From: Caproiciproducens sp. CPB-2
GTDB taxonomy: Bacteria; Bacillota; Clostridia; Oscillospirales; Acutalibacteraceae
Length of the DNA stretch: 64,000 nucleotides
Direction: 5' to 3'
NCBI RefSeq assembly: GCF_036287215.1
Contig: NZ_CP142860.1
Span: 806,001-870,000, forward strand
Part shown: piece by piece, positions 46,264-63,854 of the stretch
Layout of the letters: each line of letters starts with the position of its first letter
How positions within the stretch are numbered: the stretch's first letter is position 1
The notes under the pieces: model-generated
Told to the model about the DNA's origin: nothing
Database searches by the model: none
The model's input: the letters and a program-made list of their open reading frames with translations, nothing else
Program-made: the position numbers and the translations under genes

Positions 46264-47292
46264 ATGAAAAAATTACTGATCTCGTTATTGATTGCGGCCC
46301 TTGCCCTTACCGGCGCCGGCTGCGCAAATACCGGTTCCGATACGTCGGCATCCGCGGTGCCGGCGGCCTCCGGCAGCCAAAGCAATGCGGATTCTTCCAG
46401 CGACAAGGGCGTTACGATCCGTGTCGGCGATCTTGCCAGCTATGAGCTGATCAAGGACGCCGATGAAAAAGGATTTTTTAAAGAAGAATTTTCCAAGGAC
46501 GGTGTTACCGTTGAAATCAAAAGCTTTCAGTCCGGCCCGCCGGAGCTGGAAGCGCTGACGGCGAAAGACCTTGATTTTGCTCTGATGGGCGACCAGCCGG
46601 CGGTGCAGGGTGTCGCGAATGAAATCGGTATTCAGGTGATTTCCGGTCTGTTGGACGGCACGCACGGAAACGGTCTGATTGCCCGTGAAGACGCCGGTAT
46701 CAGTCAGGTGGCCGATCTGAAAGGGAAAAAGGTGGGCGTGCCTGTCGGGACGACAGCTCATCAGCTGTTAATTAAAATGCTCGAAAAGAACAACCTGAAA
46801 ACCTCGGACATCCAGCTTGTCAATTTGGCGGCGGGCGATATCGTCACCTCGCTACAGACCGGAAACATCCAGGCCGCCGTTACCTTCGAGCCAAGCCTGA
46901 CCAAGGCCGTGGCGGGCGGCGGAATCAAGAAAATAAGCGATGCCGAGGGATACAAGGAAATTATCAACGTCATTGTCGGCAGGACGGAATTTACGAAGGA
47001 GCATCCCGATCTGGCTGTGCGTTTTCTGAAGGTCATCAAGAAGACGGCGGAGTGGCGTGATTCCAATTTTGAAGAATCTCTGGGTATCCTTGCAAAACGC
47101 ACCGGCGTTGACAAGGAAGCCCTGCGTGCCAGTGCTTCCTCCATGCCGCCGCTTCTGGCGCTGAAGGACAGCCATAAACAGGCGATCCTGGAAACCGCCC
47201 AGTATCTGAAGAACAACAATATTATCCGTAAGGACCTGACGATCGACCAGATTTTTAACGACGAGTACGCCGTAAAAGCGGGAATTCAATAA
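46264..47292 (+). CDS. Sulfonate/taurine-type ABC transporter substrate-binding lipoprotein (module A)
   Basis: A 342-aa SsuA/TauA-like (NMT1-superfamily) binding protein. Signal peptide with lipobox-like TGAGC (Cys20), then a Ser/Ala linker, and binding domain with FQSGPPELEALTAKDLDFALMG and LKGKKVGVPVGTTAHQLL. It should capture an organosulfur (or other small anionic/heterocyclic) solute outside the cell. Paralog of the protein at 61194-62267. AAAGAGG before the ATG. Confidence 0.9.
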   Translation: MKKLLISLLIAALALTGAGCANTGSDTSASAVPAASGSQSNADSSSDKGVTIRVGDLASYELIKDADEKGFFKEEFSKDGVTVEIKSFQSGPPELEALTAKDLDFALMGDQPAVQGVANEIGIQVISGLLDGTHGNGLIAREDAGISQVADLKGKKVGVPVGTTAHQLLIKMLEKNNLKTSDIQLVNLAAGDIVTSLQTGNIQAAVTFEPSLTKAVAGGGIKKISDAEGYKEIINVIVGRTEFTKEHPDLAVRFLKVIKKTAEWRDSNFEESLGILAKRTGVDKEALRASASSMPPLLALKDSHKQAILETAQYLKNNNIIRKDLTIDQIFNDEYAVKAGIQ

Positions 47293-47305
47293 GGAGGCTG
47301 ACAGC

Positions 47306-48565
47306 ATGGCAGAGAGCAAACACAGCTGGCGTGAGGATGAGCTCAGCCTGCAGGAGGTCATAAAGAAATACCCGGACGTATCTCCTTTCGTGATTCTGAA
47401 AACAGATGTTCAGCGAAGGGGAGTCGACTTCACACAGCGTGCGATCGACGCGGTGGACCCCGACAGGGACGCGGTTGTTTATCGCGGGATTTACAGCGAA
47501 AAAAACGACCGTATCCCCAACGGGCTGATTCTTCGGGACGGAACAACGATTCTGGCCGACCGTGTCGTTCCCTCCTCCGGATTCAACGGCGGACGCGACC
47601 CCTATCTCATTGATATCGCGGACGGAAAAGCCGTGCTGACCGACGAAGGCAAAGTGATTGAAGAGGTCGGATACTGGCCGAAGCCCGATTATTTTGACAA
47701 AGTGACCAGCAGCGGAAAGCCTATGTGGCAGGTGCTGGTCGCAAGGCCGCAGCGGATGGACATTAATCTTTATCAGAACTGCGATTTTTGGAAAGATATC
47801 GGCATGGGCTGTAAATTCTGTCCGATCGCGGCAACCTACAGCAAAACCAAAAATATAAAGCGCGAGCATCTGGATTATCAGGACGTCGCGGAGGCGGTCG
47901 CCGAGGCGCTCAAACAGCCGGGGCGGTTCCGGATGATCCAGCTTTGTTCGGGCAGCCTGCTGGGCGGGAAGGAGCTGCTGGATGATGAAATTGACCAGTA
48001 TATCACCATGCTGAAGCTGCTGGAAAAGAATTTCAGCCATAAAAAGGTGATGACCCAGCTTATTTCCACCGCGCATAACGAACGGCAGCTGCGCCGCCTG
48101 CACGAGGAAACGATCCTGACGGGGTATACCGCCGACATCGAAGTCCTGAATGAAGAAATTTTCAACTGGATATGCCCCGGCAAAGCGAAGTACATCGGCT
48201 ATCAGGAATGGAAAAGGCGCCTGTATCAGGCGGCTGAAATTTTCGGCCCGGGAGCCGTCAATACCGGGATCGTCTCCGGTGTGGAGCTGGTGAAGCCAAA
48301 CGGTTTCCGCTCCGAAGAGGAAGCGCTGGAAAAGGGCCTTGCGGAAGCCGAGGAGCTCGCGCGGCACGGCGTCGGCGTCGCCCAGACGGTTTACCGTGTG
48401 GCGGAAGGCTCGTACTTCCAGAAGCAGAAAGCGGCGTCCCTGGATTACCTGACCGCTTTTGCCAAGGGGCTTGACACGCTTCAGCGCAGGTACCGTCAGG
48501 AAGCGTACTTCGACGACTACCGTACCTGCGGGAACCATCCCAACACCGATCTGGCGCGGATATAA
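47306..48565 (+). CDS. Radical SAM protein with C-x9-C-x2-C cluster motif (module A)
   Basis: A 419-aa protein: about 150 N-terminal residues of unknown fold, then the cluster motif NCDFWKDIGMGCKFC (Cys159, 169, 172; C-x9-C-x2-C rather than the usual C-x3-C-x2-C), then a radical SAM barrel (LCSGSLLGGKE, TQLISTAHNE, YTADIEVLNEEIF, NTGIVSGVELVKPNGF). The C-terminus CGNHPNTDLARI is shared with its paralog at 59431. The 4Fe-4S cluster would cleave SAM. Setting beside a sulfonate-type ABC transporter suggests cleavage of an imported organosulfur compound (inference). Confidence 0.88.
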   Translation: MAESKHSWREDELSLQEVIKKYPDVSPFVILKTDVQRRGVDFTQRAIDAVDPDRDAVVYRGIYSEKNDRIPNGLILRDGTTILADRVVPSSGFNGGRDPYLIDIADGKAVLTDEGKVIEEVGYWPKPDYFDKVTSSGKPMWQVLVARPQRMDINLYQNCDFWKDIGMGCKFCPIAATYSKTKNIKREHLDYQDVAEAVAEALKQPGRFRMIQLCSGSLLGGKELLDDEIDQYITMLKLLEKNFSHKKVMTQLISTAHNERQLRRLHEETILTGYTADIEVLNEEIFNWICPGKAKYIGYQEWKRRLYQAAEIFGPGAVNTGIVSGVELVKPNGFRSEEEALEKGLAEAEELARHGVGVAQTVYRVAEGSYFQKQKAASLDYLTAFAKGLDTLQRRYRQEAYFDDYRTCGNHPNTDLARI

Positions 48566-48577
48566 GGAGCGGAAAAA

Positions 48578-49039
48578 ATGAGCATACAATTGAACGATCA
48601 GATGATTGCGCTGATCAACGATCCCAAAACACTGAAGGTACTGGCCAGCGCCGATCAAGACGGAATTCCCCATGTGGTCTTTAAAGGCTCCGTCTCCGTC
48701 AATGCGGACGGGAAGCTGCAATATCTTGAAATCATCGAAACCTCTCAGACAAACAGGAATCTGGTGCACAGCATCTGGTTCCGCCGCCAGGTTGCCGTCG
48801 GTATCCTTACACAGGATTCCAGAAACTATCAGATCAAAGGCACTCCGGTACGGGCCGTGATCTGCGGAGAATTATTTGAAAAAAATTATATTGCCGTAAG
48901 GGAACGTTTCGGTAAGGACGCGGACCTTTCGACCGTATGGATCATTGATCCCGAAGAAATCAGAGAGGAAACGTTCAGCGTGCAGGCCTCGCGGGAGCGG
49001 GAAGCTTACCCGCTGATCGGGCACCTTGACCGATTCTGA
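48578..49039 (+). CDS. Pyridoxamine-phosphate-oxidase-like flavin split-barrel protein (module A)
   Basis: A 153-aa FMN-binding split-barrel protein (LASADQDGIPHVVFKGSV, ETSQTNRNLVHSIWF). It starts 12 bases after the radical SAM gene; the same pair recurs in module B. It may supply electrons to, or finish the reaction of, the radical enzyme (inference). Confidence 0.85.
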   Translation: MSIQLNDQMIALINDPKTLKVLASADQDGIPHVVFKGSVSVNADGKLQYLEIIETSQTNRNLVHSIWFRRQVAVGILTQDSRNYQIKGTPVRAVICGELFEKNYIAVRERFGKDADLSTVWIIDPEEIREETFSVQASREREAYPLIGHLDRF

Positions 49040-49066
49040 CAAACCTGTAAAGAAGGAAACATTCTC

Positions 49067-49864
49067 ATGATCAATCAAAAAAAGAAGGTGGGAAACAGCG
49101 GCGTTTTTACGGAATTGGTGCTGCCCGTGCTTTTTCCCCTGCTGCTGCTTTTTGTGTGGGAGACATTGAGCGCGCGGCGCATCATCAATCCTGCCATTTT
49201 GCCCGCGCCGTCAAGCATCTTTTCTACCTGCTGGTCCATGCTTGCCAGCGGCGAAATCGCAAGGCATATGCGGATGAGCGCTTTTCGCGTATGCTCGGGG
49301 TTCCTGCTGGGCAGTGCCGGCGGGCTGGTGCTGGGGATTCTGATCGGGCTGTTCCATAAAATCGACCGTGCCCTGACGCTGATCATCGGCGTTCTCCGGC
49401 CGATTCCGATGATCGCGCTGATTCCTCTGTTTATCCTCTGGATGGGAATCGATGAAACCTCAAAAATCGCGGTGATTACGGTCGGCTCTTTCTGGTCCGT
49501 TCTGATCAATACGATTTATGGAATCAAAAGTGTCGACAAAAAGCTGGTGGAGGTCGCCTTTATTTTGAAGAAAAGCCGTACGGAGACGCTTCTGAAGATC
49601 GTGCTGCCCGCCGCCCTCCCGTCCATTTTTGCGGGGATCCGGCTGGGGGCCAGCAACGCGTGGGCCTGCGTGGTGGCGGCGGAAATGATCGCCGCCTCGT
49701 CGGGAATCGGCTACCTTGTGATGTTTGCCAGAGAGGTGTCTCAGCCGGATGTCATGCTGGTCGGCATCCTGATGATCGGACTGTTCGGCCTGCTGATCGA
49801 TTTTCTGCTCGTTCACCTCGAAAAGCGCCTGCTGCGCTGGAATGAAACGGAAACGAAGGACTGA
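49067..49864 (+). CDS. ABC transporter permease, SsuC/TauC type (module A)
   Basis: A 265-aa permease with six membrane segments and the EAA loop EVAFILKKSRTETLLKIVLPAALPSIFAGIR-type region (split: KKSRTETLLKIVLP, ALPSIFAGIRLG). Works with the adjacent ATPase and the binding protein at 46264. Confidence 0.92.
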   Translation: MINQKKKVGNSGVFTELVLPVLFPLLLLFVWETLSARRIINPAILPAPSSIFSTCWSMLASGEIARHMRMSAFRVCSGFLLGSAGGLVLGILIGLFHKIDRALTLIIGVLRPIPMIALIPLFILWMGIDETSKIAVITVGSFWSVLINTIYGIKSVDKKLVEVAFILKKSRTETLLKIVLPAALPSIFAGIRLGASNAWACVVAAEMIAASSGIGYLVMFAREVSQPDVMLVGILMIGLFGLLIDFLLVHLEKRLLRWNETETKD

Positions 49865-49874
49865 GGGGGTAGCT

Positions 49875-50648
49875 ATGAGCGGATTACTGTCTATCAATCA
49901 CATCAAGAAAAATTTTATCATCGATAAAAAACAGGTGGAAGTCCTTTCAGATATCAGCCTGGATGTAAACAAAGGGGAATTCATCAGCATCATCGGTTCG
50001 AGCGGATGCGGAAAAAGCACGCTGCTGAAGCTGATCATCGGGCTGGAAAGCGCGACGGACGGACAGATTACTCTGGACGGCAAACCCCTTGTGGAGCCTT
50101 CGGAGCTGTGCGGCATGGTCTTTCAGGAATCGAGGCTGTTTCCCTGGTTCAACGTGGAGCAGAATATTGACTTCGGCATTCCGAAAAGCGTCGGCGCGGC
50201 GGAGCGGAAAAAAAGGATTGACGAGCATATCGCGCTGGTGGGGCTCACCGAGTTTACAAAGGCCAGGCCGAACCAGCTCTCGGGCGGAATGCAGCAGAGG
50301 GTCAGCATCGCCAGAGCGCTTGTCGGACAGCCGGAGCTGCTGCTGCTCGACGAGCCCTTCGGAGCCCTCGACGCCCTGACCCGCATCAATATGCAGCAGG
50401 AAATCCTGCGCATCTGGGAGGCGGAGAAAACAACAATGGTGCTTGTCACCCACGATATTGACGAAGCGATTTACTTGGGGGACCGGGTGGTGGTCATGTC
50501 CAAGCGTCCCGGCGTCATCAAAAAGATCATCCCGGTGGAGCTTGCCCGTCCCCACAGCCGGACAAGTGAAAACTTTGCCGTCATGCGCCAGAAGGTGTAC
50601 CGCGAATTTCTGGAGGAATCCGAAATCACACCGGATTACTATATCTGA
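49875..50648 (+). CDS. ABC transporter ATP-binding protein, SsuB/TauB type (module A)
   Basis: A 257-aa ATPase: Walker A GSSGCGKST, Q-loop FQESRLFPW, signature LSGGMQQRVS, Walker B LLLLDEPFGALD, and switch His in VTHDIDEA. ATG 49875 follows GAGGGGG; the longer in-frame start has none. Confidence 0.94.
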   Translation: MSGLLSINHIKKNFIIDKKQVEVLSDISLDVNKGEFISIIGSSGCGKSTLLKLIIGLESATDGQITLDGKPLVEPSELCGMVFQESRLFPWFNVEQNIDFGIPKSVGAAERKKRIDEHIALVGLTEFTKARPNQLSGGMQQRVSIARALVGQPELLLLDEPFGALDALTRINMQQEILRIWEAEKTTMVLVTHDIDEAIYLGDRVVVMSKRPGVIKKIIPVELARPHSRTSENFAVMRQKVYREFLEESEITPDYYI

Positions 50649-50663
50649 GAGCCCTGCGAAACC

Positions 50664-50703
50664 AAAGACGGCCGTTCCGGCATTTGCCGGAACGGCCGTC
50701 TTT
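50664..50703. terminator. Bidirectional terminator between opposed sulfur operons
   Basis: A perfect 19-bp stem with a 2-base loop, ending in a short T-run on both strands, between the module A ATPase and the ThiS-like gene. Confidence 0.85.
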
Positions 50704-50715
50704 TCAACGCTTTTA

Positions 50716-50937
50716 TCATGCGATTTTTTTGTACTGACCGCCGCCCATGTAATAAAGGAACTCCACACGGTCCCCGTCGCGGACGGTAATAGAGCTGAAA
50801 TCCTTCCGGCTGATGATCTCATCATTCAGCTGTACCGTTACATATTCCTGCATATCGACCTCGGTCTTTTCCAGAAGCTCCTGAACAGACATTTCCGCTT
50901 CAAAACTGTTTTGCTTGCCGTTGATCGTAATTATCAT
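50716..50937 (-). CDS. ThiS/HcyS-like sulfur carrier with C-terminal tail
   Basis: A 73-aa beta-grasp protein (IITINGKQNSF, VTVRDGDRVEFLYYMGGG). A ThiS carrier ends in Gly-Gly; this one has Gly65-67 followed by QYKKIA, so it must be trimmed before it can be adenylated and thiocarboxylated. The JAMM protease at 54863 is the obvious candidate. Comparable systems: HcyS/HcyF of Wolinella and QbsE/QbsD of Pseudomonas. It is the last gene of the operon starting at 54542. Confidence 0.88.
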   Translation of the reverse strand: MIITINGKQNSFEAEMSVQELLEKTEVDMQEYVTVQLNDEIISRKDFSSITVRDGDRVEFLYYMGGGQYKKIA

Positions 50938-50939
50938 AG

Positions 50940-51782
50940 CTAAATCTCCTTACTTTCTTCGTGCCGGCCGGCAGGTGAAAAACTGCACGCCTTCTGTTCA
51001 TAGTCGATCAGATGAGTGATGGTCGGGTGGTCTCCGCAAACCGCGCATTCAGGGTCACGGGTGATTTTGATTTTACGGAACTCCATTTTTGCCGCGTCGT
51101 AGGTAAGCAGGCTCCCGTTCAGCAGATCGCCGACTCCTAAAAGATACTTCATGGCCTCGGCCGCCTGAATCGTTCCGATGACGCCGCCCATGACCCCCAG
51201 CACCCCGGCCTGCTGGCAGGTCGGAACAGCGTCCGGCGGCGGGGGATTTTTAAATACGCAACGGTAGCAGGGGCCTTCCCCGGGAAGGAATGTCATGGTC
51301 TGCCCCTGAAAACGGATGATTCCCGCGTGTGAAAAGGGCTTTTTCAGCATGACACAGGCGTCGTTGATCAGAAATTTCACGGGGAAATTGTCCGTGCCGT
51401 CGATGATGAAGTCGTAATCCCGGTCCCTGATAATATCCAGAATATTTGCCGAAGTCGCATACTCGTGATACATAACGACGTCTACGTCGGGGTTCATCTG
51501 GTTGATCGTCTCTTTGCCGGAGAGTACCTTCGGCTTGCCGACGTCCCGCGTGCCGTGGATAATCTGTCGCTGCAGGTTGGAAAGGTCCACGGAATCCGCG
51601 TCGACCAGGCCGATGGTGCCTACGCCTGCTGCGCCCAGATACATTGCGGCGGGCGCGCCGAGCCCGCCGGTGCCGATGATCAGCACTTTTCCGTTCAGCA
51701 GCTTTTTCTGTCCGCTCACGCCGACGTTGCTCAAAATAATGTGCCGTGAATACCGCTCAAGTTGTTCGTTCGTGAATTTCAT
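50940..51782 (-). CDS. ThiF/MoeB/HesA-family carrier-activating enzyme
   Basis: A 280-aa E1-like enzyme that adenylates the C-terminal glycine of a sulfur carrier. ATP site IIGTGGLGAPAAMYLG, DADSVDLSNLQRQ, zinc cysteines in GPCYRCVF and PECAVCGDHP, and a candidate catalytic Cys in PTCQQAGVLG. ATG overlaps the receiver gene stop (ATGA). Two bases separate it from the carrier gene. Confidence 0.93.
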   Translation of the reverse strand: MKFTNEQLERYSRHIILSNVGVSGQKKLLNGKVLIIGTGGLGAPAAMYLGAAGVGTIGLVDADSVDLSNLQRQIIHGTRDVGKPKVLSGKETINQMNPDVDVVMYHEYATSANILDIIRDRDYDFIIDGTDNFPVKFLINDACVMLKKPFSHAGIIRFQGQTMTFLPGEGPCYRCVFKNPPPPDAVPTCQQAGVLGVMGGVIGTIQAAEAMKYLLGVGDLLNGSLLTYDAAKMEFRKIKITRDPECAVCGDHPTITHLIDYEQKACSFSPAGRHEESKEI

Positions 51783-52183
51783 AGGGAAGTCTCCTTTGGA
51801 ATTTGGCCGGTGGACTGGCTTTCCAGTATTTTACGCACGAGAATGGCAAGCTGATGTAAATTTTCTTTCAGAAGATAGGCGCAGCAGCGGTTCTTCATCG
51901 CATAGCGGATGCTTTCCGGCGCAACGTCTTCGGAAACGATGATAAACGGCGTTTTCGGTGTCAGGCGGTTGCGCACGGACAGCGCCTGAATGGCGTTGAA
52001 GTGCGGCGTGGAATCGTCGGAAAGAATAATATCCCATTTTTCCTGCAGCAATGCCTGGCACATGGCCAGTTCGCTGGAAACGTACCGGCTGCAGACGCTG
52101 TAGCCTCCCCGCTTCAGCTCCAGGACATTCAGATCGGCAATATACCGGAATTCCTCCACAATGAGGACGTTGATGGTTTGCAT
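51779..52183 (-). CDS. Single-domain receiver protein inside the sulfur operon
   Basis: A 134-aa CheY-like receiver without output domain: acidic pair E10-E11 in LIVEEF (Asp is usual), phospho-acceptor Asp56/57 in IILSDDSTP, Ser84 in IIVSED, Lys106 in AYLLKEN, all in register. GGAGG precedes ATG 52183. Unusual between metY and the ThiF-like gene and coupled to the latter. It may be the partner of the sensorless kinase at 55284. Confidence 0.8.
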   Translation of the reverse strand: MQTINVLIVEEFRYIADLNVLELKRGGYSVCSRYVSSELAMCQALLQEKWDIILSDDSTPHFNAIQALSVRNRLTPKTPFIIVSEDVAPESIRYAMKNRCCAYLLKENLHQLAILVRKILESQSTGQIPKETSL

Positions 52184-52204
52184 TCGGCAATCCTCCGTAT
52201 CGTT

Positions 52205-53434
52205 TTATAGTCCGCCGACAGCGTTTTCAAAATCCTCGGCCAGGTCCTCAATATCTTCCAGACCGACGCTGACACGGATCAGATCTTCGTAAACGCCTGC
52301 GTTTTCCTTTTCCATCGTACTGCTGTTCGCATAGATCGTGGAAGCGGGATGGATGACCAGCGTCCTAAGGTCGCCTATATTTGCAATATTGCACGCGTAT
52401 TTTAAATGATTGATGATGGAAAAAGCGTTTTCCTTCGTACCGGCCCGCAGGGTCAATATCGCCCCGTAACCGCCGGAAAACTGCCGCCGGGCCGTTTGGT
52501 GCCACGGGCTGGATTTTAGTCCCGGATAGTTGACGTACGCTAACTTGGGATTGCCCGAAAGCTGTTGCGCAAGCTTCTGGGCATTGCCGCAGAGGCGCTC
52601 CATCCGGATGCCCAGCGTTTCCAGGCCCAGGCTGCACAGGAAGGCGTTGAACGGGGAAAAGCAGGAGCCGGTGTTGCGGAATAGCCCGCCTCTCAGTTTG
52701 GAAAGGTAGGCGAATTCCCCGAACCTGACAAATTTTGCGATCGCCGGATAACGCTCCGGGTCCCACGCAAAGTTTCCGCTGTCGACAATGATCCCGCCGA
52801 TGGAATTTCCGCTGCCGTTGATATACTTGGACACGGAGTGCACGACGATGTCCGCGCCAAGCTCGATGGGGCGCACAAGGAAGGGGGTGGCGGCGGTATT
52901 GTCGACGATTACCGGAATTTTGTGTCTGTGCGCCATTTGCGACAGGGCAGAAATGTCGGGGACGTCCAGCTTTGGGTTCCCGATGGTCTCGACAAACAGC
53001 AGCTTCGTATGCCCGGTGATCTGATTTTCAAAGCTTTCGGGCGCGCTGTCCGCGACATAGCGGGTGGTGATCCCGTAGCTTTCCAGATCGCGGAACAGGC
53101 CGATCGTTCCGCCGAAGATTCCCGCGGCGGAAAGGATTTCATCCCCGGCGCTCAAAAGATTCAAAACGGACAGGGAGATGGCGGCCATGCCGGAAGCGCA
53201 GGCCACCGCCCCGATACCGCCTTCCAGCGTGGCGACGCGGCGCTCAAAAGCTTCGACGGTGGGGTTGTTGATTCTGGTGTAGGAGAAGCCCGGCGCACGG
53301 TTGTTGAAGATCGCCTCCAGCTCCTCCGCGGTTTTGTGTTCAAAGGCGCTGGACTGGTAAATGGGCGTATGGGTGGCTCCCGTCGCCCTGTCCGGGCCGT
53401 TGTCTTTATGAAGCAGAGCAGTATTGAACCTCAT
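52205..53434 (-). CDS. metY: O-acetylhomoserine sulfhydrylase
   Basis: A 409-aa Cys/Met-metabolism PLP enzyme of MetY type: THTPIYQSSAFEH, FSYTRINNPT, the PLP lysine in VVHSVSKYINGSGNSIGG, and RLSVGLE-like ending (RVSVGLEDIEDL). It forms homocysteine from O-acetylhomoserine and sulfide or a carrier thiocarboxylate. Overlaps the TusA stop by four bases. Its operon partners point to the carrier-bound sulfur route. Confidence 0.92.
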   Translation of the reverse strand: MRFNTALLHKDNGPDRATGATHTPIYQSSAFEHKTAEELEAIFNNRAPGFSYTRINNPTVEAFERRVATLEGGIGAVACASGMAAISLSVLNLLSAGDEILSAAGIFGGTIGLFRDLESYGITTRYVADSAPESFENQITGHTKLLFVETIGNPKLDVPDISALSQMAHRHKIPVIVDNTAATPFLVRPIELGADIVVHSVSKYINGSGNSIGGIIVDSGNFAWDPERYPAIAKFVRFGEFAYLSKLRGGLFRNTGSCFSPFNAFLCSLGLETLGIRMERLCGNAQKLAQQLSGNPKLAYVNYPGLKSSPWHQTARRQFSGGYGAILTLRAGTKENAFSIINHLKYACNIANIGDLRTLVIHPASTIYANSSTMEKENAGVYEDLIRVSVGLEDIEDLAEDFENAVGGL

Positions 53435-53679
53435 TCCAATCCGCCCTTTATCACGCCGAGCAGGTAGGTTCCGTCGCTGTTCTGAACCACCTCGATCACC
53501 TTGTGCTTTTCATTTTTCAGGCTGCGGGGAACATTCTGAATCGGTTCTCCGTCATTCAGCCGGATTTGCAGGGTCTGTCCGTTTTCCAGCTCCTCCAGCG
53601 CGACTTTTGTCTTTACGAAGGTGATCGGACACACCACATCCGTAATATCGACAAAAGCGTCATAGCTTTGCTTGCTCAT
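53431..53679 (-). CDS. TusA-family sulfur relay protein
   Basis: An 82-aa TusA-like protein with the persulfide cysteine in VVCPITFVKTK (Cys17). GGAGG precedes ATG 53679, which overlaps the sulfite reductase stop; its own stop overlaps the metY start. It may pass sulfur from sulfite/sulfide metabolism to the carrier system. Confidence 0.9.
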   Translation of the reverse strand: MSKQSYDAFVDITDVVCPITFVKTKVALEELENGQTLQIRLNDGEPIQNVPRSLKNEKHKVIEVVQNSDGTYLLGVIKGGLE

Positions 53680-54542
53680 CGGATTGCCTCCTCCAGTTTT
53701 TCCTTTAATTGATCCTCGCCGATGCGGTCGATCGTCCGGCGGAAACGTTCGCCCGGCTTTCCGTGTTCCTGAAAGAAGGCGATGGCGGCGTCTACCACGC
53801 GGAACAGCTGTTCCTTCTCTGTAATCAGCGGAAGCAGCGGCTTTCCAAAGGCCATATCGTTCCCGAAGGTGCCGCCGAAGGAGGTAATGTAGCCGCTTTT
53901 CCCCGACCAGGCGTCTGTGGGGCAGGATTTTACGCATTTCCCGCAGTAAATGCAGCGGCTTTCGTCAAACGCAAGCGAATTTGGCCCGCGGCTGACGCTG
54001 ATTGCCTTTACGGGGCATGCGGCCGCGCATACGCCGCAGTAGGTGCAGTCTCCGCTGTGCCACTCGGGGCGAAGCCCTCCTTTAATACCGAGGTCGTTTT
54101 CTTCCGCTCTCAGGCAGTTGTTTTTGCACCCGGTAATGCCGATTTTAAATTTGTGGGGCAGGTCCCTGCCGAAATATTTGGCGTCCAGTTCCTTAGCGAG
54201 CCCGCTGGTCTCGATCAGACCGCTTCCGCAGATCGCGTTGCCCTGGCACGCGGTGACCGTACGCACGCGCGGGCCGCATGCCCCCGGCTGAAGCCCTACT
54301 TCGGCCAGCTCGCCCTTTACCGCCTCCACGTCTGCAAAGTCGATGAACGGGATTTCAATTCCCTGCCGTGACGTCATATGGACATAGCCCTTTCCGTACC
54401 GCTCGGCTATCTCGCTGACTTTTTTAATCTGCTTTCCCTGCAGCTGACCGCCGACCACACGGATTCTCAGCGAAAATTTACTGTTTTGAATCTGCCTCAT
54501 AAATCCGCCTTTTTTCAGCTCTTTATATATCGACTCATCCAT
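53676..54542 (-). CDS. Small siroheme/ferredoxin-type sulfite reductase
   Basis: A 288-aa protein of the nitrite/sulfite reductase family: siroheme-4Fe-4S cysteines 99, 105, 139 and 143 (TACQGNAIC and TGCKNNC), plus two ferredoxin 4Fe-4S motifs (Cys166-176 and 197-207). This is the compact anaerobic type that reduces sulfite to sulfide with low-potential electrons. First gene of the thiocarboxylate operon; AAGGAGG before ATG 54542. Confidence 0.9.
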   Translation of the reverse strand: MDESIYKELKKGGFMRQIQNSKFSLRIRVVGGQLQGKQIKKVSEIAERYGKGYVHMTSRQGIEIPFIDFADVEAVKGELAEVGLQPGACGPRVRTVTACQGNAICGSGLIETSGLAKELDAKYFGRDLPHKFKIGITGCKNNCLRAEENDLGIKGGLRPEWHSGDCTYCGVCAAACPVKAISVSRGPNSLAFDESRCIYCGKCVKSCPTDAWSGKSGYITSFGGTFGNDMAFGKPLLPLITEKEQLFRVVDAAIAFFQEHGKPGERFRRTIDRIGEDQLKEKLEEAIR

Positions 54543-54862: not shown

Positions 54863-55276
54863 GTGATAATATTAAAAAAACAGCAGATAGGGGAAATGAT
54901 ACGCCACAGCATTGCCGGGCTTCCCAACGAAAGCTGCGGGCTGATCGCGGGAACCGTCGAAAACGATTGCAAAACGATTGAAAGGGTATATCTGCTGAGG
55001 AACATCGACGAAAGCCCGGAGCATTTTTCCATGGATGTGCGGGAGCAGTTTGCGGCGGTCGCGGATATGCGAAAGAACGGCTGGAAGCTGATCGGCAATT
55101 TTCACAGCCATCCGCAGACGCCGTCCCGCCCTTCACAGGAGGACATCCGGCTGGCCTTTGACCCGTCGCTGAGCTATTTGATCCTTTCCCTTGCGAACAG
55201 GCGGGAGCCGGTGCTGAACAGCTTTCTGATACGGAATCAATCCGTGGAGAAAGAAGAAATAAAAAGTTTGGAGTGA
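54863..55276 (+). CDS. JAMM/MPN (M67) metalloprotease
   Basis: A 137-aa Mec/HcyF/QbsD-like zinc protease. Active-site Glu23 (PNESCGLIAG), His81 and His83 and Asp94 in HSHPQTPSRPSQED. Family members cut at Gly-Gly ends of sulfur carriers; here it likely removes the QYKKIA tail from the ThiS-like protein or releases the product. The start is GTG 54863 with GGGAGG. Confidence 0.9.
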   Translation: MIILKKQQIGEMIRHSIAGLPNESCGLIAGTVENDCKTIERVYLLRNIDESPEHFSMDVREQFAAVADMRKNGWKLIGNFHSHPQTPSRPSQEDIRLAFDPSLSYLILSLANRREPVLNSFLIRNQSVEKEEIKSLE

Positions 55277-55283
55277 GTTTGTC

Positions 55284-56042
55284 ATGGACCCCCGTGAACA
55301 CGAGGCCTTTGCAGGAATTCAGGAACAGGAGCAGAAATCCCCGCGCGACGACGGCCATGACCTGCAGATGCTCAGTTCTACGATCTCCCATGAAATCAAA
55401 GCGCCGGTACGCGCCATTGACGGCTACGCGCGGATCTTCCTTGAGGATTACCGCGATAAAATCGATGAGGACGGCCTGCTGCTGATCTCCAATATCCGCA
55501 CGATATGTGGGGAAACGCTTGCCATGATCGACAGGCTTCTGGAATACACCCGGCTTTCCGGAGTGGAACCCGTCAAGGAAACGGTCAATCTGCAGCAGAT
55601 GATTCAGGACGTGTGCGACGAGCTTGCGGCGGGCTATAAAAGCAAAAAAGCTACCGTGTTGAAATTTCAGGAGGAGATTCCGTTTGTCCTGTGCGACGGG
55701 ACCCTGATGCATCAGGTGGTGGTGAACCTGGTCTCAAACGCGCTGAAATTTACCCGCGAAGAACAGACCGCCGTCATTACCGCGGGCTTCCATCCCGAAA
55801 ACGGGGAGGATGTATTTTATATCCGCGATAACGGCGTGGGGTTCGATATGGAATATTCCCAGAATCTGTTCGGCATGTTCCAGCGCATGCATTCCGATGA
55901 TGAATTCGAGGGGAGCGGCGTAGGCCTTTCCATTGTGAAAAAGCTCATTCAGGCAATGGGCGGTAGAGTCTGGATAACCGGCGAGGTCGGAAAGGGGGCC
56001 TGTGTGTATTTTACCCTTCCCCCGGGCAATATTTTGAAATAG
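55284..56042 (+). CDS. Soluble histidine kinase without a sensor domain
   Basis: A 252-aa kinase with H-box STISHEIKAPVRAIDGY (His36), N-box NLVSNALKF, G1 RDNGVGFDM and G2 GSGVGLSIVKKL. Only about 25 residues precede the dimerisation helix, with no membrane segment, so the signal must come from a partner. It resembles the kinase core of phytochrome-type proteins. Starts eight bases after the JAMM stop. Confidence 0.9.
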   Translation: MDPREHEAFAGIQEQEQKSPRDDGHDLQMLSSTISHEIKAPVRAIDGYARIFLEDYRDKIDEDGLLLISNIRTICGETLAMIDRLLEYTRLSGVEPVKETVNLQQMIQDVCDELAAGYKSKKATVLKFQEEIPFVLCDGTLMHQVVVNLVSNALKFTREEQTAVITAGFHPENGEDVFYIRDNGVGFDMEYSQNLFGMFQRMHSDDEFEGSGVGLSIVKKLIQAMGGRVWITGEVGKGACVYFTLPPGNILK

Positions 56043-56082
56043 AGCCGTGTGGTCGCTTGTTTCTGTTAGGAGGTGTCGGCAG

Positions 56083-57210
56083 ATGTATCGGGTTTTATTG
56101 GTGGATGACCGGGATATTTTTCTCATGGAGCTGAAAAGGCTGAAGGTATGGGGGAATATTTCCGGGTTCGAGGTGGCGGGAAAGGCCAACAACGGAAGAC
56201 AGGCAATGGAAATGCTGAAATCCTCTTCCTATGATCTGGTCCTTACGGATATCCGCATGCCGGTGGTCGACGGCCTGCAGCTTCTGCGGGTCATCAATCA
56301 GGAGAACCTGTGCTCCTGCGTGGTGCTCCTGAGCGAGTACAGTGAATTCAATTACGCCCGGCAGGGAATTGTGCTGGGCGCTTTCGATTATCTTGTCAAG
56401 CCTCCCAGCCGGGAAAAGCTTTTGGAGCTGTTCCGGCGGGCGCACCGCTTTCTGGAAACCCGCAAAAAAGGGGAAGACGCCTACGGGAACCCGCTGGAGA
56501 CCGACTTTGGCTGGGCATACCCCTCTGCGGAGGAAAAAAGGGTTGTCGACGGGTTCCTGAACCGGAGCCCCGATACGGCGCAGATTTTTGAAAGCGCCGT
56601 GAAAAGCGTGTACACCATGATGGGCGACAATATGATCAAGGCCGACATCCTTGTCAGAAAGCTGTACCACCATATCATCGAAGAGGTTTATTCAAAAATC
56701 CCCTGGCTGAGCGATTTTATCGATATCCGCTTTTTTGACGCCACGGAATATCTGCAGGAAAGCGGACCGGATACCTATAAAGAATATTACTGCGGGAAAA
56801 TAACTTTTTTGCTGAACTTCATCCGCAGGTATCAGCCGGAGGTGGAGAACGGTACCATCAGCGAAATCTGCGCTTACATACTGGGCCATTCGGAAGACGA
56901 TATCAAGCTGAAGGTGCTCGCGGAAAAATTTTATATCAACAATACTTATCTGAGCAATACCTTTGTCGTTAAAACCGGAATGCACTACAACAGCTTCGTC
57001 ACGATGGTAAAGATGGCGCGCGCGGAATACCTTTTTAAAAATACGGATTTGAAAACCTATGAAATCTGCTATCAGCTGGGGTATCACGATATCAATTACT
57101 TTTCCAGACTATTTAAGAGCTACATCGGCAAAAGCCCGGCGGAGTACCGGAGCCTGCAGCTCAAAAATTGCCCGGTGGCCATGGAGAGCTGCTGCAAGAT
57201 AGCTCCGTAA
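56083..57210 (+). CDS. AraC-type (YesN-like) response regulator
   Basis: A 375-aa regulator: receiver domain (DD pair in LLVDDRD, phospho-Asp56 in LVLTDIRMP, Lys in YLVKPP), a middle helical segment, and a C-terminal AraC DNA-binding domain (FYINNTYLSNTFVVKTGM, CYQLGYHDINYFSRLFKSYIG). Likely receives phosphate from the upstream kinase and controls the sulfur operons (inference). AGGAGG before ATG 56083. Confidence 0.9.
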   Translation: MYRVLLVDDRDIFLMELKRLKVWGNISGFEVAGKANNGRQAMEMLKSSSYDLVLTDIRMPVVDGLQLLRVINQENLCSCVVLLSEYSEFNYARQGIVLGAFDYLVKPPSREKLLELFRRAHRFLETRKKGEDAYGNPLETDFGWAYPSAEEKRVVDGFLNRSPDTAQIFESAVKSVYTMMGDNMIKADILVRKLYHHIIEEVYSKIPWLSDFIDIRFFDATEYLQESGPDTYKEYYCGKITFLLNFIRRYQPEVENGTISEICAYILGHSEDDIKLKVLAEKFYINNTYLSNTFVVKTGMHYNSFVTMVKMARAEYLFKNTDLKTYEICYQLGYHDINYFSRLFKSYIGKSPAEYRSLQLKNCPVAMESCCKIAP

Positions 57211-59138: not shown

Positions 59139-59241
59139 TAATATATGTTTAGTAGATTATAAACCTTGCTCTCAAATTGCAGACCGGCAAGGTCTGCTCC
59201 GGTGGTTTTATCGATAATCCTGGCTATCTGTAAAACGCTCG

Positions 59242-59270
59242 GCAACAGGAGTTTGCTATGCTCCTGTTGC
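59242..59270 (+). repeat. Leader hairpin of module B
   Basis: GCAACAGGAG and its perfect complement around a 9-base loop; a smaller GCAGACC/GGTCTGC hairpin precedes it (59179-59197). Neither has a T-run. Confidence 0.5.
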
Positions 59271-59323
59271 TGTTATGATGCGCCCGGATCAGGAACTGAT
59301 TGACAAGGTGGAACAAGGGGGAG

Positions 59324-59407
59324 ATGCGCGTGCTTTATCATTTCATAATCCCAAGAGGGATCCGGGAGTACTGTCTCGGCTCCTATAGATTATTTATCAT
59401 TCAATGA
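59324..59407 (+). CDS. Possible leader ORF of module B (27 aa)
   Basis: A 27-codon ORF (or 25 from GTG 59330, better spaced from AAGGGGGAG) with GIREYCLGSYRLF near its end. It stops 23 bases before the TTG start of the radical SAM gene. It could couple translation to, or sense amino-acid supply for, the module. It may also be chance. Confidence 0.35.
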   Translation: MRVLYHFIIPRGIREYCLGSYRLFIIQ

Positions 59408-59430
59408 AAAAGAAAGTAGGCGGATACAGA

Positions 59431-60678
59431 TTGAGTAATGATCGCAATTGGCGGGAAAAAGAGCGCAGCCTTTCGGAAGTGATCCGGAAATATCCCGACG
59501 TTTCCCCGTTTGTCATTATAAAAACCGATGTGCAGCGCAGAGGGGTTCTCTATACCGAAAAGGCTCTCGCCGCCGTCGATCCGGACATCCATCTTACCAA
59601 ATTGCGCAGCGATTACAGCAATAAGGAGGATTTGACGCCTGTTTCTCTTACGATGCGGGACGGCACCTCCATTAACGTCGGGGACGAGGGTAGCGGGGAC
59701 GCGCATAGCGACAGAGACCCCTACCAAGTGGATGTGGTGGATGGAAAAATCGTATTGGTGGATGAAGGAAACGTCATTGAAGAGGTTTCTTACTGGGAAA
59801 AGCCGGATTATTATGAAAAAGTAACCTCACGGGGTACTCCCATGTGGCATGTGGTTTCTCCCCGCCCGCAGCGGCTGTGCATCCATCCCCACCAGCAATG
59901 CGATTTTTGGAAAACGCCCGGCTACGGCTGCAAGTTCTGTACCATGTCCGCCGTTTACCACGCGGGCAACAAGCCGGAGCTGCTGAACACGCAGGATATT
60001 GTGGAGACTGTGGCCGAGGCACTCAAGGAGCCGGGGCGCAATGTCAATATCTTCCTGACGGGCGGAACGCTGAGGGGCGGGAAAAATTTCCTGGACGAGG
60101 AGCTCGACTGTTATATTGACATTCTGGCAGGAATCACCAGGCTGTTTGGGGGAAAGCGTTTTCCGAGCCAGCTGATCAGCACGGCCTTCTCACGGGAGCA
60201 GCTCCGGCGCCTGCACGACAGCACGGGCCTTGCTTCCTATACGGCGGACCTCGAGGTGCTCAATAAAAGCCTGTTTGAATGGATCTGTCCGGGCAAGGCG
60301 GCGACGATCGGTTATGAGGAATGGAAAAACCGTTTGTATGAGGCTGTAGAGATATTCGGACGCGGCAATGTGGACACCGGAATCGTGGCGGGCGTGGAAC
60401 TCGCGCAGCCAAACGGCTTTCAAACAGAGGAGGAGGCTCTGGAATCCACCCTCTCCGAAGCGGATGAAATATCCTCCCACGGCGTGGGGGTGGTCGGCTG
60501 CGTGTGGAAGGTGCATCCCGGTTCTGTTTTTCGTAAGCAGACGTCTCCCAGCCTGGAATATTACGTGCGTCTTGCCCGCGGGCTTGACCAGATACGCCGG
60601 AAATACAACCTTAGTATCGATATGGACAATTACCGGCGGTGCGGCAACCATCCCGATACGGATCTTTCCAGAATTTAG
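59431..60678 (+). CDS. Radical SAM protein with C-x9-C-x2-C cluster motif (module B)
   Basis: A 415-aa paralog of the protein at 47306. The cluster motif is QCDFWKTPGYGCKFC; shared blocks include VIRKYPDVSPFVIIKTDVQRRG, LISTAFSREQLRRLHD, ASYTADLEVLN and CGNHPDTDLSRI. TTG 59431 is chosen because AGGCGGA lies upstream and it aligns the N-terminus with the paralog; ATG 59404 has no ribosome site. Confidence 0.87.
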   Translation: MSNDRNWREKERSLSEVIRKYPDVSPFVIIKTDVQRRGVLYTEKALAAVDPDIHLTKLRSDYSNKEDLTPVSLTMRDGTSINVGDEGSGDAHSDRDPYQVDVVDGKIVLVDEGNVIEEVSYWEKPDYYEKVTSRGTPMWHVVSPRPQRLCIHPHQQCDFWKTPGYGCKFCTMSAVYHAGNKPELLNTQDIVETVAEALKEPGRNVNIFLTGGTLRGGKNFLDEELDCYIDILAGITRLFGGKRFPSQLISTAFSREQLRRLHDSTGLASYTADLEVLNKSLFEWICPGKAATIGYEEWKNRLYEAVEIFGRGNVDTGIVAGVELAQPNGFQTEEEALESTLSEADEISSHGVGVVGCVWKVHPGSVFRKQTSPSLEYYVRLARGLDQIRRKYNLSIDMDNYRRCGNHPDTDLSRI

Positions 60679-60691
60679 GAGGAGAACGATG

Positions 60692-61165
60692 ATGAGTGCA
60701 ATACTCGGCGAAGAAATCAAGCGGGCACTTGCCGATCCCGGAACGGTCCGGGCCGTGGCCACCGTGGGGAAGGACGGCGCTCCGCATATCGCATTCAAAC
60801 AATCTCTCAGGCTGCGCGGGGATGGGAACCTTGAGTACGACGAGGGGATTGAAACGTCCCAAACCAATAAAAACCTCGTGTATTCCATCTGGTTCGGGAA
60901 AACCGTTTCCATCAGCCTGCTGACCCCGGACCGGTGCGGCTACAACATCGTGGGGCGTCCCCTTCGGGTGCTGATCGCGGGAAGGGAATTCCGTACGCAC
61001 TACACAGCGGCCCGGGAAGAACGGGGGGATATCGATCTGTCTGCCGTTTGGGTGATTGAACCGGTCGCGTCGTATGAACAGAGCTTTGACAAACGCAGGC
61101 AGGAGGAAGAGGCGGCACACCCCCTGCTGCAGCATTTAGACCGCCTGACCGTAACCGGTCAATAA
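60692..61165 (+). CDS. Pyridoxamine-phosphate-oxidase-like flavin split-barrel protein (module B)
   Basis: A 157-aa paralog of 48578-49039 (ATVGKDGAPHIAFKQSL, ETSQTNKNLVYSIWFGK). Two adjacent ATGs (60689, 60692) follow AGGAGGAG that begins inside the radical SAM stop. Confidence 0.85.
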   Translation: MSAILGEEIKRALADPGTVRAVATVGKDGAPHIAFKQSLRLRGDGNLEYDEGIETSQTNKNLVYSIWFGKTVSISLLTPDRCGYNIVGRPLRVLIAGREFRTHYTAAREERGDIDLSAVWVIEPVASYEQSFDKRRQEEEAAHPLLQHLDRLTVTGQ

Positions 61166-61193
61166 CTATTTTTAAAATTTGAGGAGAAATTTC

Positions 61194-62267
61194 ATGATGA
61201 AAAACCATTTAAAAAGGAGTAAGCCTTTCATTCCGGTGCTGATTCTGGCGACCCTTCTGTCGGTATCCGGGTGCGCGTCCGCGGCTCCGTCTTCCGGTAC
61301 CTCGCAGGCGGTCGCCTCCGCTCCCGCGTCCTCCGCTTCCGCTTCGGCGCAGGAGTCCGAAAAAGATTACGGTGGGCTGACCATCCATATCGCCACCCAG
61401 CCCAGCCAGACCCAGCCCGCCCTGGCGGAGGAGCTTGGCTATTTTAAGGAGGAATTCGGCAAGAACAACATCAATTTCGATGTGCGTACCTTTGCTTCCG
61501 GCCCTCCGATCATCGAGGCGTTTGCCGCCGGTGATATCGATATCGGTCAGGTGGGCGCGCAGCCGGCCGTCCAGGCGGCCGCCAACGATATTCCGCTTAA
61601 AATCATCGCCGCCTATATGACCGGAAACGGCAAGGGCGACGGCCTGCTTGCCCGAAAGGGTTCCGGCATCAATGCGCTCGCAGATATCCGCGGGAAGAAA
61701 GTCGGCGTGCAGATCGGTTCCAATTCCCATATGCTCCTGCTGCGGATTCTGGAGTCGGTCAACCTGACCGAAAAAAACATCCAGCTGGTAAACCTTTCTT
61801 TCACGGACATCAACACCGCGCTGGAGGCCGGCAATATCGACGCCGGCGTCAGCCAGCTTCCGCAGCTGCAGACCGTAATCGACAACGGGACCGCCACCCT
61901 GCTGGAGGTAGACGGCTCTCAATTTCCAAGAACGTCGAGCGTCATTATCGTTTCGGAGGAATTTACCAAAAAATATCCCGAGCTGATTCCCCGCATCCTG
62001 AAAACGCTGGACAAAACGGTTACTTATTGCAAGGAACACGAGGACGAGGCGATCAAGATTCTTTCCAAGAGAAACGGCGTGGCGGAAAACTCTTATAAAG
62101 CGTCCTTTGCTTCCACTGAATTTTCATTATATCTGGACAAAGAACGGCTCGGTACCCTACAGGACACAAAGGAGTTCCTGCAGGAACAGGGTACCATAAA
62201 AGACGTGGACCTGGACCAGATTATCGACACCTCTTATCTGGAGAAAGCAGGAATCAGCAAAAATTAA
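61194..62267 (+). CDS. Sulfonate/taurine-type ABC substrate-binding lipoprotein (module B)
   Basis: A 357-aa binding protein: signal peptide with lipobox SVSGC, Ser/Ala linker, then TFASGPPIIEAFAAGDIDIGQVG-like core (split: ASGPPIIEAF, DIDIGQVGAQPAV) and IRGKKVGVQIGSNSHMLLL. Diverged from module A protein, suggesting a different ligand. GAGGAG before the start. Confidence 0.9.
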   Translation: MMKNHLKRSKPFIPVLILATLLSVSGCASAAPSSGTSQAVASAPASSASASAQESEKDYGGLTIHIATQPSQTQPALAEELGYFKEEFGKNNINFDVRTFASGPPIIEAFAAGDIDIGQVGAQPAVQAAANDIPLKIIAAYMTGNGKGDGLLARKGSGINALADIRGKKVGVQIGSNSHMLLLRILESVNLTEKNIQLVNLSFTDINTALEAGNIDAGVSQLPQLQTVIDNGTATLLEVDGSQFPRTSSVIIVSEEFTKKYPELIPRILKTLDKTVTYCKEHEDEAIKILSKRNGVAENSYKASFASTEFSLYLDKERLGTLQDTKEFLQEQGTIKDVDLDQIIDTSYLEKAGISKN

Positions 62268-62286
62268 CCGGAAGGGACGCTTTTGT

Positions 62287-63066
62287 ATGACTTCAAACCT
62301 GAAAAACCGGGTTATCAGGATCGGCCTGGGGTGCGTTCTGCCGGCGGTGCTGATCCTGACCTGGGAAATTCTGGGGCGGCAGGGAATCATCAACCGCTCC
62401 ATCTTCCCTTATCCCACACGCATTTTTGAAACCTATCTGGATATGGTGCGGAAGGGCAGCATACAAAAGGATCTTTCCGTAAGTGCGGGGCGGGTTATCA
62501 AGGGCTTTTGCATTGGTTCCGTCCTGGGGCTGAGTATCGGCGTTATCATCGGTCTTTCCAAAACGGCAAACAGCCTTGCGGCCTCCATCATCGGGCTTCT
62601 GCGCCCGATCCCTATGATCGCGTGGGTCCCTCTGCTCATTTTGTGGATGGGGATCGACGAAGCTTCCAAGGTGACGCTCATTTCAATCGGTACCTTTTGG
62701 CCGGTGGTGATCAACACCAGCCGCGGGATACTCAACAGCGATAAAAAGCTGCTGGAGGTGGGCACTATTCTGGAGAAAACCCGATTTCAGATGCTTACCA
62801 AGGTGGTTTTGCCCGGTGCGTTTCCCTTTATTTTTACCGGCCTGCGTCTGGGAGTGAGCAGCGCGTGGACCTGTGTCGTAACGGCGGAAGCCATCGCGGC
62901 CGCCTCGGGCATCGGCTACCTGATCATGTATGCGCGCGAGCTTTCACAGCCGCCCGTAATGTTCTCCGGCGTAATCACCATCGGCTTGGTGGGATTGCTT
63001 CTCGATACGGTTCTGCAGCAAATCGAAAAGCACGTTTTGCGCTGGAACGAGACTGATGGAAAGTAG
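62287..63066 (+). CDS. ABC transporter permease, SsuC/TauC type (module B)
   Basis: A 259-aa six-helix permease with EAA loop VGTILEKTRFQMLTKVVLPG. Paralog of 49067-49864; same operon as its binding protein and ATPase. Confidence 0.92.
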   Translation: MTSNLKNRVIRIGLGCVLPAVLILTWEILGRQGIINRSIFPYPTRIFETYLDMVRKGSIQKDLSVSAGRVIKGFCIGSVLGLSIGVIIGLSKTANSLAASIIGLLRPIPMIAWVPLLILWMGIDEASKVTLISIGTFWPVVINTSRGILNSDKKLLEVGTILEKTRFQMLTKVVLPGAFPFIFTGLRLGVSSAWTCVVTAEAIAAASGIGYLIMYARELSQPPVMFSGVITIGLVGLLLDTVLQQIEKHVLRWNETDGK

Positions 63067-63074
63067 ATATCAAA

Positions 63075-63854
63075 ATGGCTGAAAATAAAAACATAGATAT
63101 AGCAGGTGTCTCAAAAACCTTCAGGCTTTCGTCCGGGGACCTGCCGGTGCTCAACAGCATCGATTTGCAGATCGAAAGCGGCGAGTTTATCAGTGTGGTG
63201 GGCGCCAGCGGGTGCGGCAAAAGCACCCTTTTACGGATTCTTTCCGGGCTGGAAACAGCCACCACGGGCGAGGTGCGGATCGGCGGGCGCAAAGTGGAGC
63301 GCCCCAGCGTGCTTACGGGCGTGATCTTCCAGGAATCCAGGCTGTTCCCATGGCTGAACGTAGAGCAAAATATCGCGTTCGGCATCCATCAAAAAATCGA
63401 TAAGGAGCAAAGGGCGCGGTCCATAGCGGAACATATCGAACTGGTGGGGCTGAAAGGTTTTGAGAAGGCGTTGCCAAAGCAGCTTTCCGGTGGAATGCAG
63501 CAGCGGGTGAGCATCGCCCGTGCGCTGATCAATCAGCCCAACGTGCTTCTGCTGGATGAGCCGTTCGGCGCGCTGGACGCTCTCACCCGAATCCACATGC
63601 AGAATGAGATTCTGCGGATATGGGACAAAGAAAAATCGACGATGGTTTTAGTCACCCATGATGTGGACGAGGCAATCTTTCTGAGCGACCGGATTGTGCT
63701 CTTATCAAATCGTCCGGGAGAGGTCAAGAAAGTGATCTCCGTCGGTCTGAACCGCCCCAGGGACCGCAGCAGCGCCCGCTTCATCGAGATCCGCAAAGAA
63801 ATTTACACTCATTTTTTCGAGGACTCCTCCCTGTCGATCGAATACTATCTGTAG
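63075..63854 (+). CDS. ABC transporter ATP-binding protein, SsuB/TauB type (module B)
   Basis: A 259-aa ATPase: GASGCGKST, FQESRLFPW, LSGGMQQRVS, LLLDEPFGALD, VTHDVDEA. Closes module B, nine bases after the permease; followed by a terminator. Confidence 0.94.
   Translation: MAENKNIDIAGVSKTFRLSSGDLPVLNSIDLQIESGEFISVVGASGCGKSTLLRILSGLETATTGEVRIGGRKVERPSVLTGVIFQESRLFPWLNVEQNIAFGIHQKIDKEQRARSIAEHIELVGLKGFEKALPKQLSGGMQQRVSIARALINQPNVLLLDEPFGALDALTRIHMQNEILRIWDKEKSTMVLVTHDVDEAIFLSDRIVLLSNRPGEVKKVISVGLNRPRDRSSARFIEIRKEIYTHFFEDSSLSIEYYL

Follow-up and report, generated by a model that had tools for sequence, protein, structure and literature searches.

Among the systems that give bacteria access to organic sulfur, SsuABC with SsuD/SsuE and DszABC are aerobic; it has long been reported that sulfonates also serve fermentative anaerobes as a sulfur source when no oxygen is present, by a mechanism that is only partly explained, and, beyond isethionate, further oxygen-independent lyases exist for other sulfonates. 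For isethionate, three routes have been compared, namely, Xsc, IslAB, and Isr (PMC11423573). The last of these, IsrBHDK, was reported in 2024 to support, together with SsuCAB, anaerobic sulfonate-sulfur assimilation in Rhodobacter capsulatus; Rhodobacter cannot use isethionate anaerobically without the radical S-adenosylmethionine (SAM) protein IsrB, whose role is unclear, being either C-S bond cleavage or only activation of the nitrogenase-like enzyme (PMC11423573). Here, we describe a locus of Caproiciproducens sp. CPB-2 in which a radical SAM enzyme (rSAM) and a split-barrel protein accompany an Ssu-type transporter. The window, that is, the whole 64,000-nucleotide stretch that was analyzed (positions 806,001 to 870,000 of NZ_CP142860.1, the single contig of a 3.45-Mb genome), contains, past its first 40 kb, two modules of this type. 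Each module, we believe, is probably an oxygen-independent and nitrogenase-independent unit that imports and desulfurizes one class of organosulfur anions, most likely sulfonates; the anaerobic lifestyle of the organism is a premise taken over from an earlier reading of the sequence alone (hereafter, the sequence-only reading).

Both modules encode a SsuA-family binding lipoprotein, an rSAM, a split-barrel protein, a permease, and an ATPase, in this order in module A (46264-50648), whereas in module B (59404-63854) the rSAM and split-barrel genes precede those for the binding protein, permease, and ATPase; the gaps between the genes of either module are -23 to 28 bases. The stretch between the modules has the genes Sir-TusA-MetY-receiver-ThiF-ThiS on its minus strand, spaced by -4 to 21 bases, and those for a JAMM protein, a histidine kinase, and an AraC-type regulator on its plus strand (Table 1). 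Family scans and gene order thus bear out the sequence-only reading, according to which two five-gene modules, one with the binding protein first and the other with it third, bracket sulfite reductase and thiocarboxylate sulfur genes. Its count of two modules holds for the window; a search of the whole genome for the rSAM family brings the total to three, with module C located beyond the window.

The rSAM and split-barrel genes form one unit. In the set of 25 rSAM genes from 17 genomes, among which the window genome (G000) and G774 carry near copies of modules A and B, the split-barrel gene is next to the rSAM gene in 22 cases and a SsuABC-type permease or ATPase lies beside it in 19, the co-occurrence that the sequence-only reading had proposed as a check. 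The exceptions to the pairing are the middle one of three rSAMs in G578, one gene off from a pair; the rSAM of G778 (L009), which adjoins frame-broken split-barrel pieces; and one of the two most distant members, in G1145, where there is no split-barrel gene. An independent search with the split-barrel protein in 396 genomes of the phylum, which scored at most nine candidates per genome, yielded matches at E<=1e-40 confined to the five rSAM-positive genomes, with two weak matches in other genomes (8e-11 and 3e-14); in G366, a further, partial copy lies some 3 kb away from the pair. A correlation exists between the pairwise distances of the two proteins, to which shared descent alone contributes. 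The unit is rare: with an alignment of the rSAM as the query, at E<=1e-60 and with the centre genome included in each count, positive genomes amount to 4 of 391 in the class, 5 of 398 in the phylum, 1 of 100 in the family, 4 of 248 in the class of a Treponema genome, and, for the class to which an Accumulibacter genome belongs, 2 of 229. A scan of the genome collection gave five loci, in genomes that carry nine rSAM genes.

Gene order links the family of these rSAMs to isethionate reductase. The rSAMs have the three 4Fe-4S cysteines and the barrel fold of the radical SAM superfamily, and all three in this genome exceed the cut-off of 125 bits for NCBIfam NF045502 (variant_rSAM), with 155 (A), 181 (B), and 201 (C) bits; PDB sequence searches with the rSAM and with its profile gave nothing credible. 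The core of NF045502 is formed by 12 genes (370-483 bits) from 5 of the 17 genomes, and for five of these, in G336, G318, and G859, a gene for nitrogenase-like component 1 is no more than about 4 to 9 kb away. The gene order in G859 is core rSAM, phosphorylase, H, D, K, transporter, split-barrel, and window-type rSAM. In IsrD, a Pro replaces the third P-cluster Cys of NifD, and one Cys is kept at the second position (PMC11423573); judged by eye, this pattern holds for the D proteins encoded in G336 and G859 but not for those close to the loci of G534 and G366. Given this gene order with Isr-type D and K genes and the IsrD-like D proteins, the core rSAM (L018:1009-2211, L061, L063), whose annotation reads no more than "radical SAM protein", probably represents IsrB. 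In a FastTree tree of window-type (25) and core (5) sequences, whose root was placed between the two groups by choice, the window-type rSAMs separate from this IsrB-like core as its sister clade. Nitrogenase-like component 1 (PF00148), in turn, has no match in G000, G774, G775, G777, or G1145, an absence that is weaker for G775 and G777, which are metagenome-assembled genomes (MAGs). Apart from these comparisons, we observed in G336, amid the Isr-type and rSAM genes, a gene for an enzyme dependent on pyridoxal phosphate (PALP; threonine/cysteate synthase-like by eye; L018:3732-4946).

The neighborhoods in other genomes repeatedly place the pair among sulfur genes. L019, from another family, repeats the regulator-kinase-JAMM and Sir-TusA-MetY-receiver-ThiF-ThiS sets as well as MetK and the five-gene module; in L006, a Treponema MAG, JAMM, a ThiS-like gene, and module A lie between sirohaem-synthesis genes and a sulfate transporter. 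MetY occurs in the fetched stretch in 6 of the 17 genomes (G000, G774, G318, G366, G534, G578) and Sir in four (G000, G774, G366, G534). A MetK homologue is found within about 3.5 kb of the rSAM in 7 of the 17, the window genome included, and genes for nucleoside phosphorylases come after the module in L019 (13729-14523) and adjoin the IsrB-like rSAM in G859 (L063:1438-2316), which suggests disposal of 5'-deoxyadenosine; because phosphorylase and MetK genes adjoin rSAM modules, consumption of SAM is suggested. HgdB-type reductase and BadF-type activator genes share an operon with the SsuABC-type transporter and the rSAM/split-barrel pair in L029:4260-7485 (G534) and neighbor them in L049:2890-8050 (G892); these HgdB-type genes are double-cubane-like, under the NF040772 cut-off, and a further ATP-driven organosulfur reductase is possible.

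Module C begins 9.5 kb past the window, with its rSAM gene at 881662-882762 of the contig, about 12 kb beyond. Its products are a binding lipoprotein, a protein with a LUD domain, the rSAM, a split-barrel partner, a first DszB-like protein, a pair of permeases, an ATPase, and another DszB-like protein, the permeases and ATPase being named by eye. The DszB-like proteins match dibenzothiophene desulfurization enzyme B with E of 4.6e-11 and 7.1e-17. The active-site residues of DszB given in PMC12168087, Cys27, His60, Arg70, and Gly73, are kept in the alignments as C12/H52/R62/G65 in one copy and C11/H52/R62/G65 in the other. By eye, neither DszB-like protein has a signal peptide; RxGG and HFT motifs are absent from all three binding proteins. 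The distance from the module B ATPase to a patatin-like gene is about 18.8 kb here (L010:1855 to L011:2129), a stretch that holds sugar-uptake-type genes (by eye) in addition to module C, compared with about 0.45 kb in a near relative (L040:13360-13815), so that the gain or loss of module C was recent. The genome of Amazonia massiliensis MS4 (L005) carries modules A and B without a third rSAM match, and another genome from the genus of the window genome has none. The LUD-domain protein, between the binding protein and the rSAM (L010:12700-13527), has a cysteine-rich segment. A recent duplication giving rise to A and B was considered and rejected: the two are 56.5% identical, and in the tree, A joins Treponema-type relatives before B.

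From the gene set and the family assignments, which are established, we infer each reaction step, cofactor, and substrate as follows. The SsuABC-type transporter would, judging from its family, import the compound; the rSAM would make a 5'-deoxyadenosyl radical and abstract hydrogen from the carbon adjoining the C-S bond, which could trigger the loss of sulfite or sulfinate, and the split-barrel protein, probably flavin-carrying, would act as the redox partner that gives or takes the electron closing the cycle. The neighboring genes imply that MetK supplies SAM and that, in some relatives, the nucleoside phosphorylases clear the spent nucleoside. In module C, as the conserved active-site residues suggest, a sulfinate, either released or imported, would be split to sulfite by the DszB-like desulfinases. 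By homology, sulfite would then be reduced to sulfide by Sir and passed via TusA, ThiS, ThiF, and JAMM, with MetY, into homocysteine. The divergence of the three modules is consistent with different substrates, and no nitrogenase-like component would be needed in the window genome, where the search, within its sensitivity, found none. A bolder version of this scheme, which we consider somewhat less likely than not, is that the rSAM/split-barrel pair itself is a nitrogenase-independent C-S lyase (sulfonate or sulfinate-forming), coupled in module C to the DszB-like desulfinases. The sequence-only reading had taken the pair for an oxygen-free C-S cleaving system, an interpretation that is borne out in part: the near-constant pairing and its association with sulfur assimilation elsewhere, a family linked by gene order to isethionate reductase, and the lack of component 1 here speak for it, whereas cleavage by the pair itself remains the conjectural part.

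Several observations weigh against the reading of the modules as self-sufficient sulfonate units. Nitrogenase-like proteins are encoded in 12 of the 17 rSAM-positive genomes, in the same neighborhood in G859 and G336, which leaves a helper role open there; the pair might be an activase, a maturase, or an electron feeder for another C-S cleaving enzyme, be it nitrogenase-like, a double-cubane reductase, or a glycyl-radical enzyme. The ambiguous role of IsrB itself and the HgdB/BadF genes of L029 and L049 agree with such an explanation, but we regard it as unlikely given the five genomes without a PF00148 match and modules A and B, which contain no other candidate lyase, the genome not having been searched for glycyl-radical enzymes or double-cubane reductases. 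The bridge to Isr has its own gaps: 7 of the 12 core rSAMs are not known beside nitrogenase-like genes (six in G1025, and that of G778 on another contig), and the equation of the core with IsrB draws on synteny and cysteine pattern only. As for the partner, the module A split-barrel protein has the fold of the PNPOx-like proteins and misses the Pfam PNPOx_N cut-off (20.0 vs 28.1 bits), matches at E<=0.01 being found for 13 of 20 family members (best, 1.4e-5). Flavin binding has no support from sequence or structure: a PDB search with the family profile gave HupZ, a haem binder, as the top structural match, at 6e-4, and a PDB search with the module C protein gave no match. That the protein binds haem or F420, and is scavenging or protective and not a redox partner, is nonetheless, in our estimate, rather improbable.

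The substrate is the other point of contention. SsuA-family binding proteins also carry non-sulfur ligands, and that of module C falls under the family cut-off (TIGR01728, 142.6 vs 163.5 bits). Six of the 25 rSAMs (L008, L009, L020, L041, L043, L052) have no SsuABC-type neighbor in the fetched DNA, L041 and L043 being contigs of only 7.2 and 5.7 kb, and what accompanies the rSAM of L008 is, by eye, a transporter of the oligopeptide type. Together with the two DszB-like desulfinases, that transporter fits the view that the substrates are other organosulfur compounds, such as thioethers, thiophene-like compounds, or aryl sulfinates, with the pair opening the C-S bond to a thiol or sulfinate. We take this view seriously but would not bet on it, considering that the A and B binding proteins are above the cut-off, that sulfite reductase is at hand as a sink, and that the module of L030 includes genes of the galactarate/altronate dehydratase family, to which the sulfolactate lyase SuyAB belongs. 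Sir and MetY, for their part, are not specific evidence for sulfonates: genes of sulfate assimilation, for CysD, CysN, and adenylylsulfate-reductase alpha, are present at about 509-513 kb of the contig (L053), and CysD alone matches PF01507 in this genome, with adenylylsulfate-reductase alpha in place of a CysH-type reductase. The sulfite sink therefore appears to be shared, and the notion that Sir handles sulfite from sulfonates alone was rejected. It is very improbable that the modules belong to a non-sulfur pathway, for a thiamine precursor, a nitrile, or a phosphonate, and lie near sulfur genes by chance. Binding proteins of the NMT1/THI5 type do carry thiamine precursors, and the second NCBIfam match, to the MSMEG_0568 family, is weak (38 and 52 bits vs 304) and points to a neighborhood that includes nitrilase; set against this, the association with sulfur genes recurs across unrelated genomes, and module C carries DszB-like enzymes. 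The sequence-only reading would have been abandoned had homologues lain consistently beside thiamine or riboflavin genes; in the loci examined, the recurrent neighbors are sulfur genes, and no thiamine or riboflavin genes were noticed beside the pair (most neighbors were judged by eye, on the initial 70 residues of each open reading frame). The ThiS/ThiF/JAMM set, for its part, agrees with a thiocarboxylate route to methionine, and the use of thiamine or riboflavin precursors was rejected.

The remaining features of the region are listed in Table 1. A GH18-LysM gene sits between the sulfur and regulator set and module B. The receiver-only protein, encoded between MetY and ThiF, occurs at this place both in the window (51779-52183, minus strand) and in L019. 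No tRNA and no Rfam family at the gathering threshold were found in the window.

Table 1. Genes of the two modules and of the sulfur and regulator set between them (window positions)
Feature	Position	Strand	Evidence and remarks
metK (S-adenosylmethionine synthetase)	44941..46119	+	144 bases upstream of module A; named by eye from open reading frame
Module A SsuA-family binding lipoprotein	46264..47292	+	TIGR01728 189.0 bits, cut-off 163.5; lipobox LTGAGC by eye
Module A radical SAM enzyme	47306..48565	+	Cx9CxxC C159/C169/C172; C290 in CPGK; C408 in CGNH
Module A split-barrel protein (of a fold known for FMN, F420 or haem binding)	48578..49039	+	
Module A SsuC-like permease	49067..49864	+	BPD_transp_1; top NCBIfam match SsuC, under equivalog cut-off
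Module A SsuB-like ATPase	49842..50648	+	ABC_tran
ThiS-like sulfur carrier	50716..50937	-	TIGR01683 above cut-off; C-terminus MGGGQYKKIA, residues beyond GG
ThiF/MoeB-like E1 enzyme	50940..51782	-	PF00899 272 bits
Receiver-only (response-regulator-like) protein	51779..52183	-	PF00072 under cut-off; L019 homologue 200 bits
MetY-like, O-acetylhomoserine sulfhydrylase family	52205..53434	-	PF01053 387 bits; TIGR01326 455 bits, under cut-off 495
TusA-like sulfurtransferase	53431..53676	-	PF01206 66.7 bits
Small sulfite reductase with ferredoxin domain (AsrC-like; Sir)	53676..54542	-	PF01077, PF03460, Fer4; TIGR02912 146 bits, under cut-off 324
JAMM/Prok-JAB protease (HcyD-like)	54863..55276	+	PF14464 78 bits
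Histidine kinase	55284..56042	+	HATPase_c, HisKA; L019 homologue 195 bits
Response regulator with AraC-type DNA-binding domain	56047..57210	+	PF00072, PF12833; L019 homologue 451 bits
Module B radical SAM enzyme	59404..60678	+	NF045502 181 bits; start ATG 59404 or TTG 59431
Module B split-barrel protein	60692..61165	+	44.7% identical to that of A; split-barrel family search 218 bits
Module B SsuA-family binding lipoprotein	61194..62267	+	TIGR01728 195.7 bits
Module B SsuC-like permease	62287..63066	+	PF00528
Module B SsuB-like ATPase	63075..63854	+	ABC_tran

If the preferred reading is correct, the modules would be a compact five-gene set for import and release of organic sulfur. On the bolder version, the pair would add a further oxygen-independent route to sulfonate sulfur beside Xsc, IslAB, and Isr, with module C doing anaerobically for aryl-sulfur compounds what the Dsz route does aerobically. 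Moreover, a genome in which a sister rSAM is joined by a split-barrel protein and an Ssu-type transporter, with no detectable nitrogenase-like component, makes the question of whether IsrB cleaves or activates directly testable. The sequence-only reading knew of no described system of this composition. We found no description of a radical SAM, split-barrel, and sulfonate-transporter system, nor a paper joining split barrel, radical SAM, and sulfonate, in the open-licence PMC literature (titles and abstract starts; subscription papers and preprints lie outside), but IsrBHDK with SsuCAB is a close precedent.

The parallels with described systems delimit the proposal from several sides. The sulfur genes between the modules, in which ThiS-, ThiF-, JAMM-, MetY-, and Sir-type genes occur together and the end of ThiS extends past GG as if needing trimming by JAMM, resemble the protein-thiocarboxylate methionine pathway HcyS/HcyF/HcyD/MetY that Krishnamoorthy and Begley reportedly described in Wolinella in 2011; here, unlike there, TusA, the receiver protein, and the two-component pair are added, and organosulfur import modules are linked. 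With the aerobic SsuABC-SsuD/SsuE and DszABC systems, the locus shares the Ssu-type transporter and, in module C, the DszB-like desulfinases, whereas the rSAM and split-barrel protein stand in the place of the monooxygenase, no gene for which was found in modules A, B, and C (the modules only; no genome-wide search was made for Xsc, IslA, SsuD, or TauD). With the glycyl-radical isethionate sulfite-lyase IslAB (PMC6386719), it would share a radical, oxygen-independent release of sulfite from a sulfonate. With the methylthio-alkane reductase MarBHDK, it would share oxygen-free C-S cleavage and has in common the presence of an rSAM, accessory in MarBHDK; none of the conserved motifs of NifB is missing from MarB, however, and nitrogenase P- and [Fe8S9C]-clusters are found in the enzyme (PMC12552129), in contrast to the lack of any PF00148 protein here. 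The closest system is IsrBHDK with SsuCAB (PMC11423573), in which, as is proposed here, a radical SAM protein and an Ssu-type transporter take part in the assimilation of sulfonate sulfur under anaerobic conditions, and the window rSAMs lie above the cut-off of NF045502, whose core members neighbor Isr-type H, D, and K genes in G336 and G859. The window genome differs from it in having no component 1 match, in an rSAM of a separate clade, and in a split-barrel partner tied to that rSAM, the main text of PMC11423573 making no mention of flavin, split barrel, or pyridoxamine. Taken together, the comparisons suggest that the window system works like Isr but is distinct from it.

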